From a virus: DNA of 22,563 bases. Made by a program: the position numbers and the translations under genes. Location of the stretch: IMG/VR virus record IMGVR_UViG_3300040751_003480, positions 1 through 22,563 of that record. One strand, 5' to 3'. The notes under the pieces are model-generated. The model was given only the letters and a program-made list of their open reading frames with translations, was not told the DNA's origin and did not search any database. Shown one piece after another: positions 3,151-20,066 of this stretch; position 1 is the first letter of the stretch, and each line of letters begins with the position of its first letter.

Positions 3151-4503
3151 TCAAAGCCAAGCTGGAAGAGTCGCTTGCATCGTCGGATTGTAGTCTAGTT
3201 TTGTCTTGCTTGTTTTGCCTTCGCCAATTGAAAGCCTCATTTGGTTCTTCATCGTATCATGAGAGAGCGCTTTCCTCTCGATCGTCCGCCAAACTGGAAT
3301 CTCGGCGTCTGAAATGAAAACGTGAACATTAACTTGTTTCGTTTGACCAAATCTCCACGAGCGCCTGACGGCCTGGTAAAATGACTCGTAGCTGTAGGAG
3401 ATCGAGGCAAACGCCATGTTCCTGCAATGCTGCCAATTCATCCCAAAGCCGCAAATCTTAGGTTTTGAAATCAAAACCCGGGCCTTACCATTCGTAAAAG
3501 CATTCAACCGCTCCTCTTTTTGCTCGATCGTTTGGCTTCCTTTCACCTCGACCGCGTCTGGGATCAATTTCGCCAGCAATGCGCTTTCGTCGTTGGATTC
3601 GCACCACACAATCCAGGGATCTTCGCTTTTGTTCACCATTTCCGAGACAAGCTGACAACGTTGATCGATAGTCAGTCGCTTTGTCGCGTGGAGATCCGTA
3701 GCGCTCACAGAAGGCATGTGAAAGAGCTCGTCTTGTGATCCTAATTGCAACGGAGTCGCCACGGAGTGCGTGTGGAACTTGATCGGTGGTAGTGCATAGC
3801 CCTCGTCGTCAAATCCAAGGTCGGAAGGCATAGATACGCAAACCGACCAAGATCCGACCCACTCCCAAAAGTCGCGGACGGCATGGCCCTTTAGTCGCCA
3901 GTCTGCGGTATTCGCTGAATCGTGGATGAACCACCGAGTCAGCATCTCCTGAGAGTTCATCACGCCCAAGAACTCGGAATGGTTTCCGAGCTCCGTATGA
4001 TCGTTTGGGGCGGGAGTAGCGGTGCATGCCAGCTTCCACGGCGTGTTTTGAAATGATTTTGTCAACCATGCCCGCATCTTGCCGGTTTGCCCTTTTAGAA
4101 TTGAGGACTCATCAAGCACCACAGCGGAGAACCTTGGAATGTCAAAAAGGTGCGCTCGCTCGTAATTTGTGATTGTAATCCTATCCTTTACGGTCCCGTC
4201 TTTCGAATGCCCGATCTCCATGTCGAGCAACTTATGCGACTCCTCAACAGTCTGCTCAGCGACCGCAAGCGGTGCGAGAATCAGCACGTCGCCGGAGACG
4301 TGGCGAGCCCAGTCGAGCTGTAGAAATGTCTTCCCGAGCCCAGTGTCAAGAAATGCAGCTCCGGTTCCGAAGTCCAGCAGTCTTCGCAGGCTTTCGACCT
4401 GATGAGGCTTGGCATTCGGGTGTGGATCGAAATCGACCTTTTTACGCGTCGACAGCTTCGATCGTTTCTTGCTTTTCAAGAGCTCAAGATAGGCAGGATT
4501 CAT
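3151..4503 (-). CDS. SNF2-like SF2 DEAD/DEAH helicase or translocase
   Basis: A 450-residue superfamily 2 ATPase. Visible motifs: a Q-like region KPHQVESLRRLL (32-43), Walker A DTGLGKT (53-59), Walker B LDESS (130-134), motif III TATPAPND (161-168), motif V-like KPKICGFGMNW (347-357) and motif VI QAVRRSWRFGQT (377-388). The arrangement is that of small SNF2-like phage helicases that often sit beside a DNA methyltransferase. Its ATG overlaps the stop of the methyltransferase by four bases, so the two products are probably made together. The role could be DNA remodelling in replication or recombination, or a partner of the methyltransferase. There is no extra nuclease domain. Confidence 0.85.
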   Translation of the reverse strand: MNPAYLELLKSKKRSKLSTRKKVDFDPHPNAKPHQVESLRRLLDFGTGAAFLDTGLGKTFLQLDWARHVSGDVLILAPLAVAEQTVEESHKLLDMEIGHSKDGTVKDRITITNYERAHLFDIPRFSAVVLDESSILKGQTGKMRAWLTKSFQNTPWKLACTATPAPNDHTELGNHSEFLGVMNSQEMLTRWFIHDSANTADWRLKGHAVRDFWEWVGSWSVCVSMPSDLGFDDEGYALPPIKFHTHSVATPLQLGSQDELFHMPSVSATDLHATKRLTIDQRCQLVSEMVNKSEDPWIVWCESNDESALLAKLIPDAVEVKGSQTIEQKEERLNAFTNGKARVLISKPKICGFGMNWQHCRNMAFASISYSYESFYQAVRRSWRFGQTKQVNVHVFISDAEIPVWRTIERKALSHDTMKNQMRLSIGEGKTSKTKLDYNPTMQATLPAWL

Positions 4504-5387
4504 AGAAGCACCTCCTTTTGAGCTTCTGCTGCTTTCAGATTGGCTTCAGCCTGCGCAAAATAGCTTGGCTTCAGCTCTGTCCCGATGAACTTTCGATCGT
4601 GTTGAACAGCTACGTATCCTTCCGAACCAATTCCGGCAAACGGAGAGAAAACAACGTCGCCGGTATTGCTCCAGAGCACCAGGCACCGCTTGATAAAGTC
4701 GAGTTGCAGCGGGCAAATGTGCTTCTCGTCTTTCTCATCGCGGGCCGACGTCTTGTTGAGCACGTTCGTCTGGTTAATATCCATCCATACTGGGCTCGCC
4801 CATTGCTGCCATTGATCGACAGGGAACTCTTCGGCGGTATGCGTAACCGGTTCTGGATTGTCTCCTGGCTTGTAGAATACAAGCAGGTAATCAGGGTTAC
4901 CCATGCGGCTGCGGCATGAATCCTTTTTGATCTGCTTGTGCAAAAGCCCAAGAGCCTTTGTTCTCTGCATTTCTACGACAGGATCCTTCCAGACCGTCAC
5001 GCGGCAATGGTATATCCACCCTTCCTCGATATGTGCGCGGATGATCTCACCTGAAAAGTCTCGGCGCCCGATATAGCCGTGCATAGTCTTGCTCGTCGGA
5101 AGATCCATGCAATGGACGCATGAGATGCGCCCCGGCTTCGTGATTCTGAAATTCTCTGCAATTAGAAACCGATATTGGTCGAAGAATTGCGCATCGTCCT
5201 CGCAGTTTCCCATGTCCGCTACGCTGTCTCCGTAAATGTATAGATTGGCGAATGGCGGCGAATAGATCGACAGGTCGACGCTGTCGTCAGGCAATCCTTC
5301 CGCGAAGGATACGCAATCCGCGTTATAGACGCTCCAATTCTTACCGTGCGCCTCATTAAGCACTTTTGTTTTTAGCTCTGTTTTCAT
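4500..5387 (-). CDS. DNA methyltransferase, SPPF type (N4-cytosine or N6-adenine)
   Basis: A 295-residue amino-methyltransferase of the beta arrangement: catalytic motif IV SPPF at 43-46 comes before the SAM-binding motif FSPFAGIGSEG at 247-257. The segment EKHICPLQLDFIKRCL (221-236) is the usual motif X equivalent before motif I. SPPF/SPPY often marks N4-cytosine methylation, but related phage enzymes methylate adenine, so the base is open. Ribosome site aaaggtgagat precedes ATG 5387. It is coupled to the helicase by ATGA overlap, and its start overlaps the end of the small upstream gene. No restriction nuclease is seen, so self-protection or antirestriction is likely. Confidence 0.86.
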   Translation of the reverse strand: MKTELKTKVLNEAHGKNWSVYNADCVSFAEGLPDDSVDLSIYSPPFANLYIYGDSVADMGNCEDDAQFFDQYRFLIAENFRITKPGRISCVHCMDLPTSKTMHGYIGRRDFSGEIIRAHIEEGWIYHCRVTVWKDPVVEMQRTKALGLLHKQIKKDSCRSRMGNPDYLLVFYKPGDNPEPVTHTAEEFPVDQWQQWASPVWMDINQTNVLNKTSARDEKDEKHICPLQLDFIKRCLVLWSNTGDVVFSPFAGIGSEGYVAVQHDRKFIGTELKPSYFAQAEANLKAAEAQKEVLL

Positions 5388-8609: not shown

Positions 8610-9971
8610 TTAAAGTCTAAGTCTTTCAGCGAGTGTTACGAATGCAACCTGCGCGGTCTGAGGAACCACCCCGTTCCCCAGCAGTCGGAGTTCGTCCACT
8701 CTGGAGGTGGACTCAGTCGGGCCGACAGGATCAGGACTCACCCATCCGGGCGGGAGGCCCATGAGATGTTCGACCCATCGTGGGTTGAGTTTTCCGGTAG
8801 ACTGAGACTGTAGATCGCCCCCTCCGCTTACCAAAGTCGGGTTTTTCTTTCTCGGTGCCTGACCACCTAAAACAACTGCGTTTGGTAATGTGTCCATAGG
8901 GTTGCCTTTACGGTCTTGCCTCCCAGCCCCACTTACGCCCTTATAGTCTATAGTAGTAGCGGTGGGCCAATTCTTTTCAACCATCTCAACCTGCTGATTT
9001 ATCGTCTGCGATTGCAGGACGAGTTTACCATCGGGTTGCTTCCTGTAGGCTGACTCTCCTGGTCTGGCGGGTTCGCCGTTCTTTGTGAAAAGAGTCTCTA
9101 CGCGAGCTCCCGCCTCATTGGCGCAGGGAGTTCTCCAGTCAGCACACTCTTGGGGCTTCCCAATCGTGCTGGGATTCTCCGGCGCGGGAGGGCCAGGGTT
9201 GCCACCCTCCTGGTAGACTACCCTCGCAAGTTGATCCACCCTCTTCCTCTGACTTCCATCCGGGTTTTTCGCCTCGGTCGCCATCCCGGGAGTATCTTTC
9301 CAATCCCGCGCCGATGCCGTAGGCCAATTCTCCTTTACTTCCTGGGCTAGGATTTTGCCCCCTTTGCCGTTTGGTCTTGAGCCCGGATTGGCTGCCCTTG
9401 GAGTCGGCCAGCCCAAGGATGAATGTCCGCTTTCTCTGGTGAGGTGCGCCGACTTCAGCCGCACTGAATATTCCTGCCTCTGCTCTGTAACCCACGCGCT
9501 CCAGTTCTCGGAGCACATGGAGCAAAACCGGAGTTCCGGCAGGGTCGCGCCATCCATCTCCCTTGAGTTTCTTGCTGATAATTCCTTCGACGTTCTCCAA
9601 GAAAACAACGGCAGGTCTTGCGATTCGGATTCCTTCGAGGATGGCAGGGAAGAGGTGTCTCGGATCGGAGTCCGCGTCACCTCGCCCCGCTGCTGAGAAG
9701 GGTTGACATGGAAACCCTCCGCTGAGTATGTCAATCCCATTGAAGTCTTTCCAAGGGAATGTGCGAAGGTCAGTCCAGACAGGAGCCGGGGGAATTTCCC
9801 CTGCTTCCATCTTTGCAACCAAGTTCTCGATTGCGAAGGCTTCGATCTCGCTAAAAGCGATTGTTCGCACTGATCGGCCAAAGATTCGATCGAGGGCGAG
9901 GTCGATCCCTCCGTATCCGGCGCAGAGGGATACGTGGGTGAGAGGGGCAGGTTTTTCGGTATTATCCACAT
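8610..9971 (-). CDS. Dcm-overprinting protein with WPT repeats and methyltransferase motif X
   Basis: A 453-codon frame, +1 relative to the Dcm gene, overlapping it for its first 278 codons. The overlap is not a simple shadow: the protein carries SENWSAWVTEQRQEYSVRLK (154-173) and GWPTPRAANPG (187-197), patterns I recall from phage proteins next to Dcm genes. Four W(P/R)T modules start at Trp188, 216, 279 and 335. The unique C-terminus has LNPRWVEHLMGLPPGW (395-410) and LGNGVVPQTAQVAF (431-444), which match the end and motif X of C5-cytosine methyltransferases, exactly what Dcm here lacks. It may be a second methyltransferase subunit with target recognition and motif X, or be joined by frameshifting. 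The true start is uncertain: the ATG at 9971 lies 8 bp inside Dcm, and later starts such as Met78 or Met139 are possible. Confidence 0.75.
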   Translation of the reverse strand: MWIIPKNLPLSPTYPSAPDTEGSTSPSIESLADQCEQSLLARSKPSQSRTWLQRWKQGKFPRLLSGLTFAHSLGKTSMGLTYSAEGFHVNPSQQRGEVTRTPIRDTSSLPSSKESESQDLPLFSWRTSKELSARNSREMDGATLPELRFCSMCSENWSAWVTEQRQEYSVRLKSAHLTRESGHSSLGWPTPRAANPGSRPNGKGGKILAQEVKENWPTASARDWKDTPGMATEAKNPDGSQRKRVDQLARVVYQEGGNPGPPAPENPSTIGKPQECADWRTPCANEAGARVETLFTKNGEPARPGESAYRKQPDGKLVLQSQTINQQVEMVEKNWPTATTIDYKGVSGAGRQDRKGNPMDTLPNAVVLGGQAPRKKNPTLVSGGGDLQSQSTGKLNPRWVEHLMGLPPGWVSPDPVGPTESTSRVDELRLLGNGVVPQTAQVAFVTLAERLRL

Positions 9972-9978
9972 GGTTCAT
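9139..9978 (-). CDS. dcm: C5-cytosine DNA methyltransferase, lacks motifs IX-X
   Basis: From ATG 9978 (MNHVDNTEKP) the product has 279 residues. Motif I SLCAGYGGIDLAL (17-29), motif IV with catalytic Cys91 in GGFPCQPFSAAGRG, motif VI FLENVEG (126-132) and motif VIII APHQRKRTFILG (178-189) are all intact. After motif VIII the chain becomes low-complexity (Gly/Ser/Arg-rich) and stops without a target-recognition domain, motif IX or motif X. A GNGVVPQ motif X lies downstream in the +1 frame of the overlapping ORF. Alone it may be inactive; with the second product it resembles two-chain enzymes such as M.EcoHK31I. An upstream-extended frame to 10125 is rejected because it overlaps the preceding gene. 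Confidence 0.9.
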   Translation of the reverse strand: MNHVDNTEKPAPLTHVSLCAGYGGIDLALDRIFGRSVRTIAFSEIEAFAIENLVAKMEAGEIPPAPVWTDLRTFPWKDFNGIDILSGGFPCQPFSAAGRGDADSDPRHLFPAILEGIRIARPAVVFLENVEGIISKKLKGDGWRDPAGTPVLLHVLRELERVGYRAEAGIFSAAEVGAPHQRKRTFILGLADSKGSQSGLKTKRQRGQNPSPGSKGELAYGIGAGLERYSRDGDRGEKPGWKSEEEGGSTCEGSLPGGWQPWPSRAGESQHDWEAPRVC

Positions 9979-17542: not shown

Positions 17543-17581
17543 ATGGATTGTTTGAGTTGGGGAACTCGACAATCCAAATGA
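17543..17581 (+). CDS. 12-codon leader ORF overlapping the capsid start
   Basis: ATG 17543 reads MDCLSWGTRQSK and stops at TGA 17579-17581, overlapping the capsid ATG at 17578 as ATGA. It may couple translation to the capsid gene, or be chance. No ribosome site is evident. Confidence 0.25.
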   Translation: MDCLSWGTRQSK

Positions 17582-19530
17582 ACGAAAAGACAGGCACAGT
17601 AACGTGGTACAACCTCGCCACCAGCGAGGGTGTCGCAGAGATCTCTATTCACGACGAGATCGGAGCGTTTGGCGTATCAGGGAAAATGTTCTTGGAAGAT
17701 CTTAAGGCGATGCAGGACATCGACGAGATCCGCCTCTCTATTCACTCACCAGGCGGCGACGTCCTAGAAGGATGGGCGATCTACAATGCGATCAAAACTT
17801 TCGACGGTAAAGTCACCGCGAAAGTCGAAGGATTCGCTGGTAGCATGGCATCCGTCATTTTGATGGCCGCGGACGAAATCGTCATGCCTGCCAATTCCTA
17901 TCTCATGATTCACAATCCCTATGTAGGATTGATCGGAGACGCGCAGGCCATGATCGACGCAGCGACCACGTTGGAGAAGATCCAAAACTCAATCGTATCC
18001 GTCTACCAAGAGCGCACCGGACTCGACCGCGAAAAGGTCGAAGACCTGATGAAGCGCGAGACTTTTATGGACGGCGCCGAAGCTGTTGAGCTTGGCTTTG
18101 CCGATCGTGTCGAAGAAAGCTTCAAGGCTGCCGCACTGAAAAAGGAATGGGGCAGCCTGATTCCGCACAACAATTTCCCAAAAGGGCTGGTTTTCGGATC
18201 CACCGAACGGCCCGAACCAGAACCAAAACCAGCACCACCTAAACAACCTCAAAATATGAGTGACGAGCCCAAAACGCCGGAAGCTCCGGCTGTTAACATC
18301 AAAGACATTCGCGACGAAGAGCGCCGGCGGATCAGCGAGATTTCCGCGATCGGCCAGCGTTTCGATGTGTCGGACAAGGAGATCAATTCCGCGATCGACA
18401 ACGGCAAGGACATCAACGAGTTCCGCGCCGAGGTCATGAATGCGTTCGATCCAAGCAAATTCGCGGCAGGAGGATCAAATGAATCCGCCTACGTCGGCGA
18501 GCCCGAGGTGAAGAATTACTCGATCCTTAAGGCCATCAACGAGCAGATCAACGGAGGACTCACCGGAGTTGAGCGCGAAGTCCAAGACGAGCTTTCTCGT
18601 CGTTTCCGCAACGCCACCGGAGACGCCCCGAAGGGGATCCTCATTCCCGGCGAAGTTTCTCACGGACCTGTCCGCAACGCAGCTACCGTCGGAACCGGAA
18701 CCAGCGGAGGAAACACCGTCGCTACCGAGCTCCAGCCTGTCATCGACTACTTCGAGGACTACTCCTTGCTGCCTGCACTCGGTGCCACGATCTTCCGCGA
18801 CGTGACCGGCAACCTGTCGTTCCCTCGCGCCACTGCCGGTTACACCGGAACGTGGGACGCCGAGACGGACACGATCGCCAACGCTGACGCTACCTTCGCG
18901 GCCAACCTCGTGTTGAGTCCCAAGCGAGTCGGTGCCGGAACTGCTGTTTCGCTCCAGCTCCTCCAGCAGTCGTCCGTCGATTTTGAGGGATGGATCCGCG
19001 GCAAGCTTGCCCAGGGCATCTCGATCGCAATCGATCGCGGTGCATTTACCGGAGCAGGCGGAGACGCACCTACCGGCATCCTGAGCGCCAGCGGCACCAC
19101 CGCTTACACGTGGCAGGTCGGCAATTCCGCCCATCAGAACACGATCGACCAGTGGAAGGAACTGCGCGACGCGAAGGTTCCGCTCAACACCGCGAAGTGG
19201 CTTTCCGAGCCCGGCATCACCGCTGACTGGATGAGCACCGTGAAGGAGAGCGGCCAGGCAAACTATGTGATCAACGAGAATCCGACCGGCGCTCAGCGCG
19301 TCCTTGGATATGATTACATGGATCACGTCGACATTACCGCCAACAAGGTCATCTTCGGCGAGTTCAGCTACCTCCTCGTGGCTCTCTTCGGCGGAATCGA
19401 CCTCGTGGTCGATCCTTACAGCTCCAAGAACGCTGGACAGGTCGAGCTCTTCGCAAACGCATTCGCAGACGCAGGACTTGAGCAGCCCTCCGCTTTTGTC
19501 ATCGGAGACAACGGCACGACCCACGCATAA
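17578..19530 (+). CDS. fused ClpP-like prohead protease and HK97-fold major capsid protein
   Basis: One 650-residue frame from ATG 17578 (a TTG start at 17548 is possible). Residues about 1-195 are an S14 ClpP-like protease: RLSIHSPGGDVLEGWAIYNA, nucleophile Ser89 in GFAGSMAS, His112 in MIHNPY, and TFMDGAEAVELGFAD as the acidic motif. A Pro-rich linker (209-226) leads to a charged scaffold-like helix (about 241-260, RDEERRRISEIS), then the HK97-type capsid from about residue 330 (PGEVSHGPVRNAATVGTG and onward). Many phages keep protease and capsid separate. An in-frame Met at 18256 (residue 227), right after the linker, could start a separate scaffold-capsid chain, like Nu3 within lambda C, although no ribosome site is seen. 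Confidence 0.9.
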   Translation: MNEKTGTVTWYNLATSEGVAEISIHDEIGAFGVSGKMFLEDLKAMQDIDEIRLSIHSPGGDVLEGWAIYNAIKTFDGKVTAKVEGFAGSMASVILMAADEIVMPANSYLMIHNPYVGLIGDAQAMIDAATTLEKIQNSIVSVYQERTGLDREKVEDLMKRETFMDGAEAVELGFADRVEESFKAAALKKEWGSLIPHNNFPKGLVFGSTERPEPEPKPAPPKQPQNMSDEPKTPEAPAVNIKDIRDEERRRISEISAIGQRFDVSDKEINSAIDNGKDINEFRAEVMNAFDPSKFAAGGSNESAYVGEPEVKNYSILKAINEQINGGLTGVEREVQDELSRRFRNATGDAPKGILIPGEVSHGPVRNAATVGTGTSGGNTVATELQPVIDYFEDYSLLPALGATIFRDVTGNLSFPRATAGYTGTWDAETDTIANADATFAANLVLSPKRVGAGTAVSLQLLQQSSVDFEGWIRGKLAQGISIAIDRGAFTGAGGDAPTGILSASGTTAYTWQVGNSAHQNTIDQWKELRDAKVPLNTAKWLSEPGITADWMSTVKESGQANYVINENPTGAQRVLGYDYMDHVDITANKVIFGEFSYLLVALFGGIDLVVDPYSSKNAGQVELFANAFADAGLEQPSAFVIGDNGTTHA

Positions 19531-19538
19531 TTCACCTA

Positions 19539-19572
19539 GATCAGCCCGGGGAGAGATCCTCCCCGGGCGATC
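19539..19572 (+). other. strong hairpin after the capsid gene
   Basis: GCCCGGGGA (19544-19552) pairs perfectly with TCCCCGGGC (19560-19568) over a 7-nt loop, and GATC on both sides can extend the stem with one bulged A. No T-tract follows, so it is more likely an RNA-stabilising or pausing structure than a terminator. Confidence 0.6.
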
Positions 19573-19587
19573 ACAACCGCAGATGGC

Positions 19588-19782
19588 ATGAAGATCTATT
19601 TTCCAAAAGACGGCATCAACTACAAAGGCGAGCCCCAACCAGCAGGAACCGTTCTCGACGTGGACAACACGCAGCACAGCGGCGCCCTCCTTGCTGGCGG
19701 ATGCAAAGTCTACAATCCCGACGTTCACAAGGTAAAAGAGCCCAAGCGCTCGCCTGGACGCCCGCCAAAAGACAGTAAATGA
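19588..19782 (+). CDS. small post-capsid protein with AT-hook-like tail
   Basis: A 64-residue protein. The N-terminal MKIYFPKDGINYKGEPQPAG and LLAGGCKVYNPD suggest a small beta fold; the C-terminus KRSPGRPPKDSK contains an AT-hook-like GRP core, often used for minor-groove or nucleic-acid contact. It is placed right after the capsid, where head decoration or completion proteins are common. The function is unproven. The next gene overlaps its stop (ATGA). Confidence 0.65.
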   Translation: MKIYFPKDGINYKGEPQPAGTVLDVDNTQHSGALLAGGCKVYNPDVHKVKEPKRSPGRPPKDSK

Positions 19783-20066
19783 GAACTCGACCGGCATATA
19801 TCGCACCCTGCCCGGGACCGTCGCAAAGCGGCAAAAGTCATTCAATGCTACACGCTTTGAGGACCGGCGCAGGGCTTGCCTACGACACGATCGAAAGGCT
19901 CGAACGTGACGTGGCATTGTGGCGAAAGCTGCCGGCGCAAGACAGAGAGGCAGCCGCGAAAGCTGCCTCGGTCGATGCCGAGAACCTCGAACTTGCGATT
20001 GATTCTATGTCAGCATCGCTGCCGCAAGGATCGCCGCCCAAGAAGATTGTTCCAAAGAAGAAGTAA
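19779..20066 (+). CDS. hypothetical head-region protein
   Basis: A 95-residue protein. It has a helical middle (AYDTIERLERDVALWRKLPA, then REAAAKAASVDAENLELAID) and a basic Lys-rich end (KKIVPKKK). No family is recognised. ATG 19779 overlaps the previous stop, which favours it over the internal Met at about residue 24. It is the last gene before the terminator. Confidence 0.58.
   Translation: MRTRPAYIAPCPGPSQSGKSHSMLHALRTGAGLAYDTIERLERDVALWRKLPAQDREAAAKAASVDAENLELAIDSMSASLPQGSPPKKIVPKKK

Follow-up and report, generated by a model that had tools for sequence, protein, structure and literature searches.

A single stretch of viral DNA very probably encodes both subunits of a two-chain C5-cytosine methyltransferase, with motifs I to VIII on one protein (alpha) and motifs IX and X, along with the recognition part, on a second protein (beta) read from the same strand in another frame. 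The stretch lies within a window of 22,563 nucleotides, which is the whole of the DNA analysed, and comparison with homologues makes the dual coding of alpha and beta very well supported. In the proposed mechanism, alpha would be responsible for AdoMet binding and catalysis and would end after a conserved WPxR..Q..WExPR element, and beta, whose +1 reading frame begins 7 nt downstream of the alpha ATG, would contribute a variable recognition part followed by motifs IX and X. The two chains would then assemble into one enzyme, which may methylate the phage DNA and so protect it from host restriction.

Gene layout and distribution of the motifs

The initial annotation had described two overlapping reading frames, the second of which overlaps the first for 278 codons and continues for 175 more, and both were found where it had placed them (Table 1). 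The beta frame is an uninterrupted ORF of 453 codons, in the +1 frame relative to alpha. The presence of motifs I, IV, VI and VIII and the lack of IX and X in the Dcm-like product were also borne out: alpha carries these four motifs, with the catalytic PCQ and the ENV of C5-cytosine DNA methyltransferases, and its match to the Pfam DNA_methylase profile PF00145 (E 1.4e-33) spans residues 14-197 only, which correspond to profile positions 2-168 of 324. Alpha also matches phrog_363 (E 2.1e-48), and its AlphaFold2 model resembles M.HhaI in a fold search (E 9e-13).

The two motifs missing from alpha are supplied by beta. Motif X had been reported near the end of the +1 ORF and was located there (8681-8658), and the WPT modules do begin at Trp188 close to the end of motif VIII, the tryptophan lying at 9410, five bases past 9415. 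Motif IX, of which the initial annotation made no mention in this frame, is present in beta as well. On its own it shows a weak similarity of 2 bits to the M.HhaI motif. When alpha 1-188 is joined to beta 188-453, PF00145 covers positions 2-316 of 324 in a profile search, with motifs IX and X in collinear order. A match between beta and phrog_1008, annotated as 'DNA methyltransferase' (E 5.6e-26), extends over residues 111-449 and includes part of the overlap. As a single-sequence query beta found nothing in the viral collection, whereas an alignment-based search of that collection returned hundreds of candidates. The predicted beta model has a mean pLDDT of 55 and one confident helix (154-177); since the model gave no significant match in the fold search and the beta profile none against the PDB, the structure beyond this helix was not used as evidence.

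Table 1. Features of the alpha and beta chains, by position in the window
Feature	Position	Strand	Description
Alpha, C5-cytosine methyltransferase chain	9139..9978	-	279 aa; ATG at 9978, alternative GTG start at 9969-9967
Overlapping starts ATGTG	9967..9971	-	Beta ATG 9971-9969 and alpha GTG 9969-9967 with one base in common; beta start kept here in 58/61 homologues
Alpha motif I region SLCAGYGGI	9907..9933	-	Columns invariant in alignment A2
Alpha motif IV GFPCQPFS	9694..9717	-	Holds the catalytic Cys; columns invariant in alignment A2
Alpha motif VI ENV	9589..9597	-	Columns invariant in alignment A2
Alpha motif VIII QRKRTFIL	9415..9438	-	Columns nearly invariant in alignment A2
Alpha tail element WPSRAGESQHDWEAPRV	9145..9195	-	Followed by the alpha stop; kept in all five homologues with motif X in beta
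Beta, +1-frame protein	8610..9971	-	453 aa; overprints alpha for 278 codons; WPT modules and motifs IX and X; basis: open frame, phrog_1008, stop depletion
Beta N-terminal extension (about residues 1-83)	9724..9971	-	Overprints alpha from motif I to shortly before motif IV; basis: no +1 stop in codons 21-80, selection ratio 0.36
Beta core segment W157-R171	9459..9503	-	Inside the alpha region before motif VIII; W157 and R171 unchanged across the 61 homologues; confident helix 154-177
Beta motif IX LNPRWVEHLMGLPPGW	8742..8789	-	Nearly invariant in alignment A1; collinear with M.HhaI KLHPRECARVMGYPDSY in the concatenated query
Beta motif X LGNGVVPQ	8658..8681	-	PF00145 match on the joined chains reaches profile position 316

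Several other genes of the window have features of their own. A second DNA methyltransferase of the N6/N4 type (PF01555) is located at 4500-5387 (-), in the same replication region as an adjoining helicase gene, and a 660-aa ORF at 17548-19530 (+) combines a ClpP-type protease and an HK97-type major capsid protein in a fusion, with matches to PF00574 and PF05065. Antisense to this protease-capsid gene runs a 480-codon ORF (18475-19917, -), which is probably not a gene, given that an antisense frame as long arises in 12.5% of synonymous shuffles. In an SSB-like gene (1487-1825 and 1507-1821, -) the +2 frame is open over the full length, an extent matched by 0/200 shuffles, although as one result among 60 frame tests this may be due to chance.

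Constraint on the second frame

The homologue set was drawn from 80 IMG/VR homologues of alpha and 80 beta-matching loci, with some contigs common to both, and a cut-off of <85% nucleotide identity left 61 non-redundant viral homologues. Expected stop numbers were obtained by shuffling the synonymous codons of each gene over the catalytic part of alpha. In these homologues the +1 frame holds 18 stops, compared to 188.6±9.1 expected, for a z-score of -18.8 that is descriptive only, since the statistic does not account for the kinship of the homologues; the +2 frame holds 525, compared to 527 expected. Ten of the 18 stops fall in alpha codons 1-20 and eight in codons 81-120. In a first set of 49 homologues, ten +1 stops all occurred at codon 1, preceding the beta ATG, and the remainder at codons 84-114. 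Within the viral family of the window, codons 21-80 are devoid of +1 stops, where about 83 would be expected. Among 115 neighbouring ORFs, used as a control, the observed to expected ratio in the +1 frame is 1.05. For the window itself, the +1 frame of alpha stays open for 277 codons, whereas synonymous-codon shuffles average 126 and 0/200 of them attain the observed length, and alpha is the sole gene out of 12 tested in the window whose +1 frame is open beyond the shuffles. These shuffles and the neighbouring genes rule out that the frame is open because of codon bias or composition.

The beta start is conserved as well. It is located 7 nt downstream of the alpha ATG (9978), at alpha codon 3, and the ORF preceding alpha (10279-9986) stops 7 nt upstream of that same ATG. 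The consensus at this start among homologues is ATGTGG(A/G)T, and almost all of them have a beta N-terminus of the form M-(T)-W-[IV]-[IL]-P, with ATG, GTG or TTG as the start codon; the residues M-W-I-[IL]-P are kept while the alpha residues beneath them vary. Of 58 loci, 34 have just one possible alpha start upstream of motif I, which in 31 cases is a GTG overlapping the beta start by one base. The two chains may thus be translated from neighbouring or overlapping start codons.

Substitutions in close pairs indicate purifying selection on both frames, as would be expected of overlapping genes. Changes that are silent in alpha and alter beta occur at a relative rate of 2.19, compared to 6.04 for changes silent in both (36 close pairs), or about one third as often, and the same comparison in control genes yields 2.83 and 2.82. 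Using 46 independent close pairs, the ratio of beta-altering changes to changes silent in both is 0.36 (CI 0.28-0.46) for the N-terminal extension, 0.49 (CI 0.36-0.73) for codons 81-118 and 0.34 (CI 0.26-0.46) for the beta core. Identity at four-fold sites is 0.50, against 0.31-0.34 in a small number of control gene pairs of similar protein identity. Individual codons follow the same pattern. Alpha Leu159 is encoded by TTG or CTG in 61/61 homologues, even though NTG accounts for 33% of the leucine codons, and beta Trp157 is therefore invariant in all 61; at alpha 173 only NCG codons occur (Ala in 59, Ser in 2), which makes beta Arg171 invariant in the 61 homologues. Alpha 162 varies between V, L and M, but is usually NTG before G, which gives beta Trp160 in 54/61. 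The analysis of synonymous changes in both frames that had been proposed for the homologues therefore finds the second frame constrained, and the suggestion that over 800 bp encode two proteins is upheld by stop depletion, codon invariance, the conserved beta start and purifying selection in close pairs.

The extent of this constraint also bears on how the chains would be produced, for which the initial annotation had proposed either two chains or a +1 frameshift. If ribosomes shifted by +1 after motif VIII and ahead of the first WPT module, alpha 1-188 would be joined to beta 188-453 and the upstream part of beta would be left untranslated. The joined chain does fit the whole C5-methyltransferase profile and Trp188 does sit at the end of motif VIII, but the frameshift is very unlikely, considering that beta upstream of motif VIII is nearly free of stops and under purifying selection, and that the conserved beta start at alpha codon 3 would be left unexplained. 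A programmed +1 frameshift implies a second frame constrained only past the shift site, whereas here the constraint reaches alpha codon 3. Moreover, in most homologues motif X is already in the alpha frame and motif IX in +1, so that one shift would gain IX and lose X. The two-chain enzyme is favoured because the motifs of alpha and beta are complementary and precedents exist; it is further supported by the collinearity of beta motifs IX and X with the profile and by the homologues with X in alpha and IX in beta. Of the two options first offered, the two-chain enzyme is the better supported and the frameshift is disfavoured.

The beta core and the changing position of motif X

Motif IX is found in the +1 frame in 33 of 59 non-redundant bacterial relatives of alpha (contigs L168-L247). 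In these 33, codons 1-80 have a closed +1 frame, with 93 stops against 62 expected, and codons 81-189 a fully open one, with 0 against 90; the N-terminal extension of beta is without constraint in the bacterial relatives. As these frames are open from about codon 81, a core beta which overlaps motifs IV to VIII is widespread, and in bacteria it looks like a widespread overlooked gene. Many of the bacterial +1 products begin M..QLTLF. To this core, the viral family of the window adds an extension that reaches the start of alpha.

In five viral homologues (L023, L037, L048, L070 and L080) beta is interrupted by a stop and resumes at once with an ATG, at +1 codons 113-119 (*KMQYELFS, *RMQLELFD), as if the extension and the core were made as two coupled polypeptides. 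A subclade whose +1 stop falls at codons 113-114 likewise restarts directly with ATG, in keeping with dual coding. A few homologues have stops or restarts of the +1 frame at codons 84-114, a sign that the extension may be separable from the core. It could accordingly be asked whether translation starts internally, around alpha codons 55-115, and yields the core alone, with the upstream +1 frame open for another reason. This would agree with the bacterial relatives, where constraint on the +1 frame sets in only at about codon 81, and with the stop followed by ATG at codons 113-115 in some viral homologues. It is nonetheless unlikely for the family of the window, in which the absence of +1 stops from codons 21-80, the selection on the extension at the amino acid level and the retention of M-W-I-[IL]-P over a varying alpha all speak against it.

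The placement of the last two motifs varies between homologues. In 118 of 158 viral loci motif IX is in the +1 frame and motif X in frame 0. Both motifs are in +1 in 6 of the 158 rows, of which 5 are distinct (the window, L043, L069, L137 and L164), and the window therefore represents a minority arrangement. A tree of the catalytic part of alpha requires four changes of motif X from alpha to beta, and the well-supported branches alone force four, so the move took place in no fewer than four lineages. The distance from IX to X in the majority loci is commonly 62, 83 or 101 nt, all 2 mod 3, and in the five loci with X in beta it is 93, 102, 108 or 111 nt, all 0 mod 3. In each of the at least four origins of the switch, an indel between IX and X brought it about. 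Alpha stops no more than 14 residues past the WPxR..Q..WExPR element in 5/5 of the loci with X in beta, after which frame 0 is full of stops. Independent truncations of alpha at one point argue for selection over decay.

In four relatives (L027, L072, L076 and L122) both frames are shifted together by one base in the region downstream of motif VIII, with IX in +2 and X in +1, which may represent an indel, an error or recoding. Such indel-shifted frame pairs in a few relatives would be compatible with an assembly error or gene decay having split a single-chain enzyme. That origin is extremely improbable for the window, where the 8 frame-0 stops in the 152 codons from the alpha end to motif X are beyond any single indel, and the arrangement has at least four separate origins, alpha ending at the same point in each. 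An assembly error was rejected on account of the frame-0 stops in this interval.

Comparison with known two-chain methyltransferases

It is rare for two long overlapping frames on one strand both to encode conserved proteins that function together, and as one frame here specifies a well-understood catalytic fold, the trade-off between the two can be measured site by site. Alpha and beta fall into phrog_363 and phrog_1008, so that both proteins have already been annotated separately; no statement that proteins of these two families share DNA was found in the literature searched, and a literature search of incomplete coverage found no published dual-frame phage C5-methylases. In phage C75C1, a complete genome and the annotated record closest to the family of the window, only alpha is annotated and the +1 frame is open throughout, which indicates that many beta subunits may have escaped annotation and that the methylation capacity of such phages may be misjudged. 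The split methylases of actinobacteriophages (LHTSCC gp81/gp80, KHumphrey 42/43) likewise consist of two adjacent methyltransferase ORFs, which differ in frame, and the second one carries IX and X; the annotated overlap, however, amounts to no more than about 20-26 nt there, and the first half of alpha has a closed +1 frame.

The beta chain of M.EcoHK31I has 176 aa and is encoded in another frame inside alpha, a nesting also found in the window, where 278 codons are under constraint. The beta of the window differs in its length of 453 aa and in overprinting alpha from its own start codon through motif I. M.EcoHK31I has motifs I to VIII and X in the large chain and IX in the small one (PMC3404938), as do the two chains of the majority of homologues, with IX in beta and X in alpha; the window departs from this division, since X is in beta too. 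In M.AquI the larger subunit holds motifs I to VIII and part of the variable region, and the smaller one the rest with IX and X (PMC3404938), a division of motifs identical to that of the window. Long same-strand overprinting of the catalytic part, present in the window, is not described for M.AquI in that source. The chances are about even that one ribosome-binding site at AUGUG serves both chains, with the subunit ratio fixed by the choice of start codon, and that the repeated passage of motif X from alpha to beta turned EcoHK31I-type into AquI-type enzymes. The family provides natural replicates of a subunit boundary shifting between two architectures that had been known only as separate curiosities. 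New in comparison to these systems are an overprinting that begins at overlapping start codons and takes in motif I, and a motif X that changes chain repeatedly.
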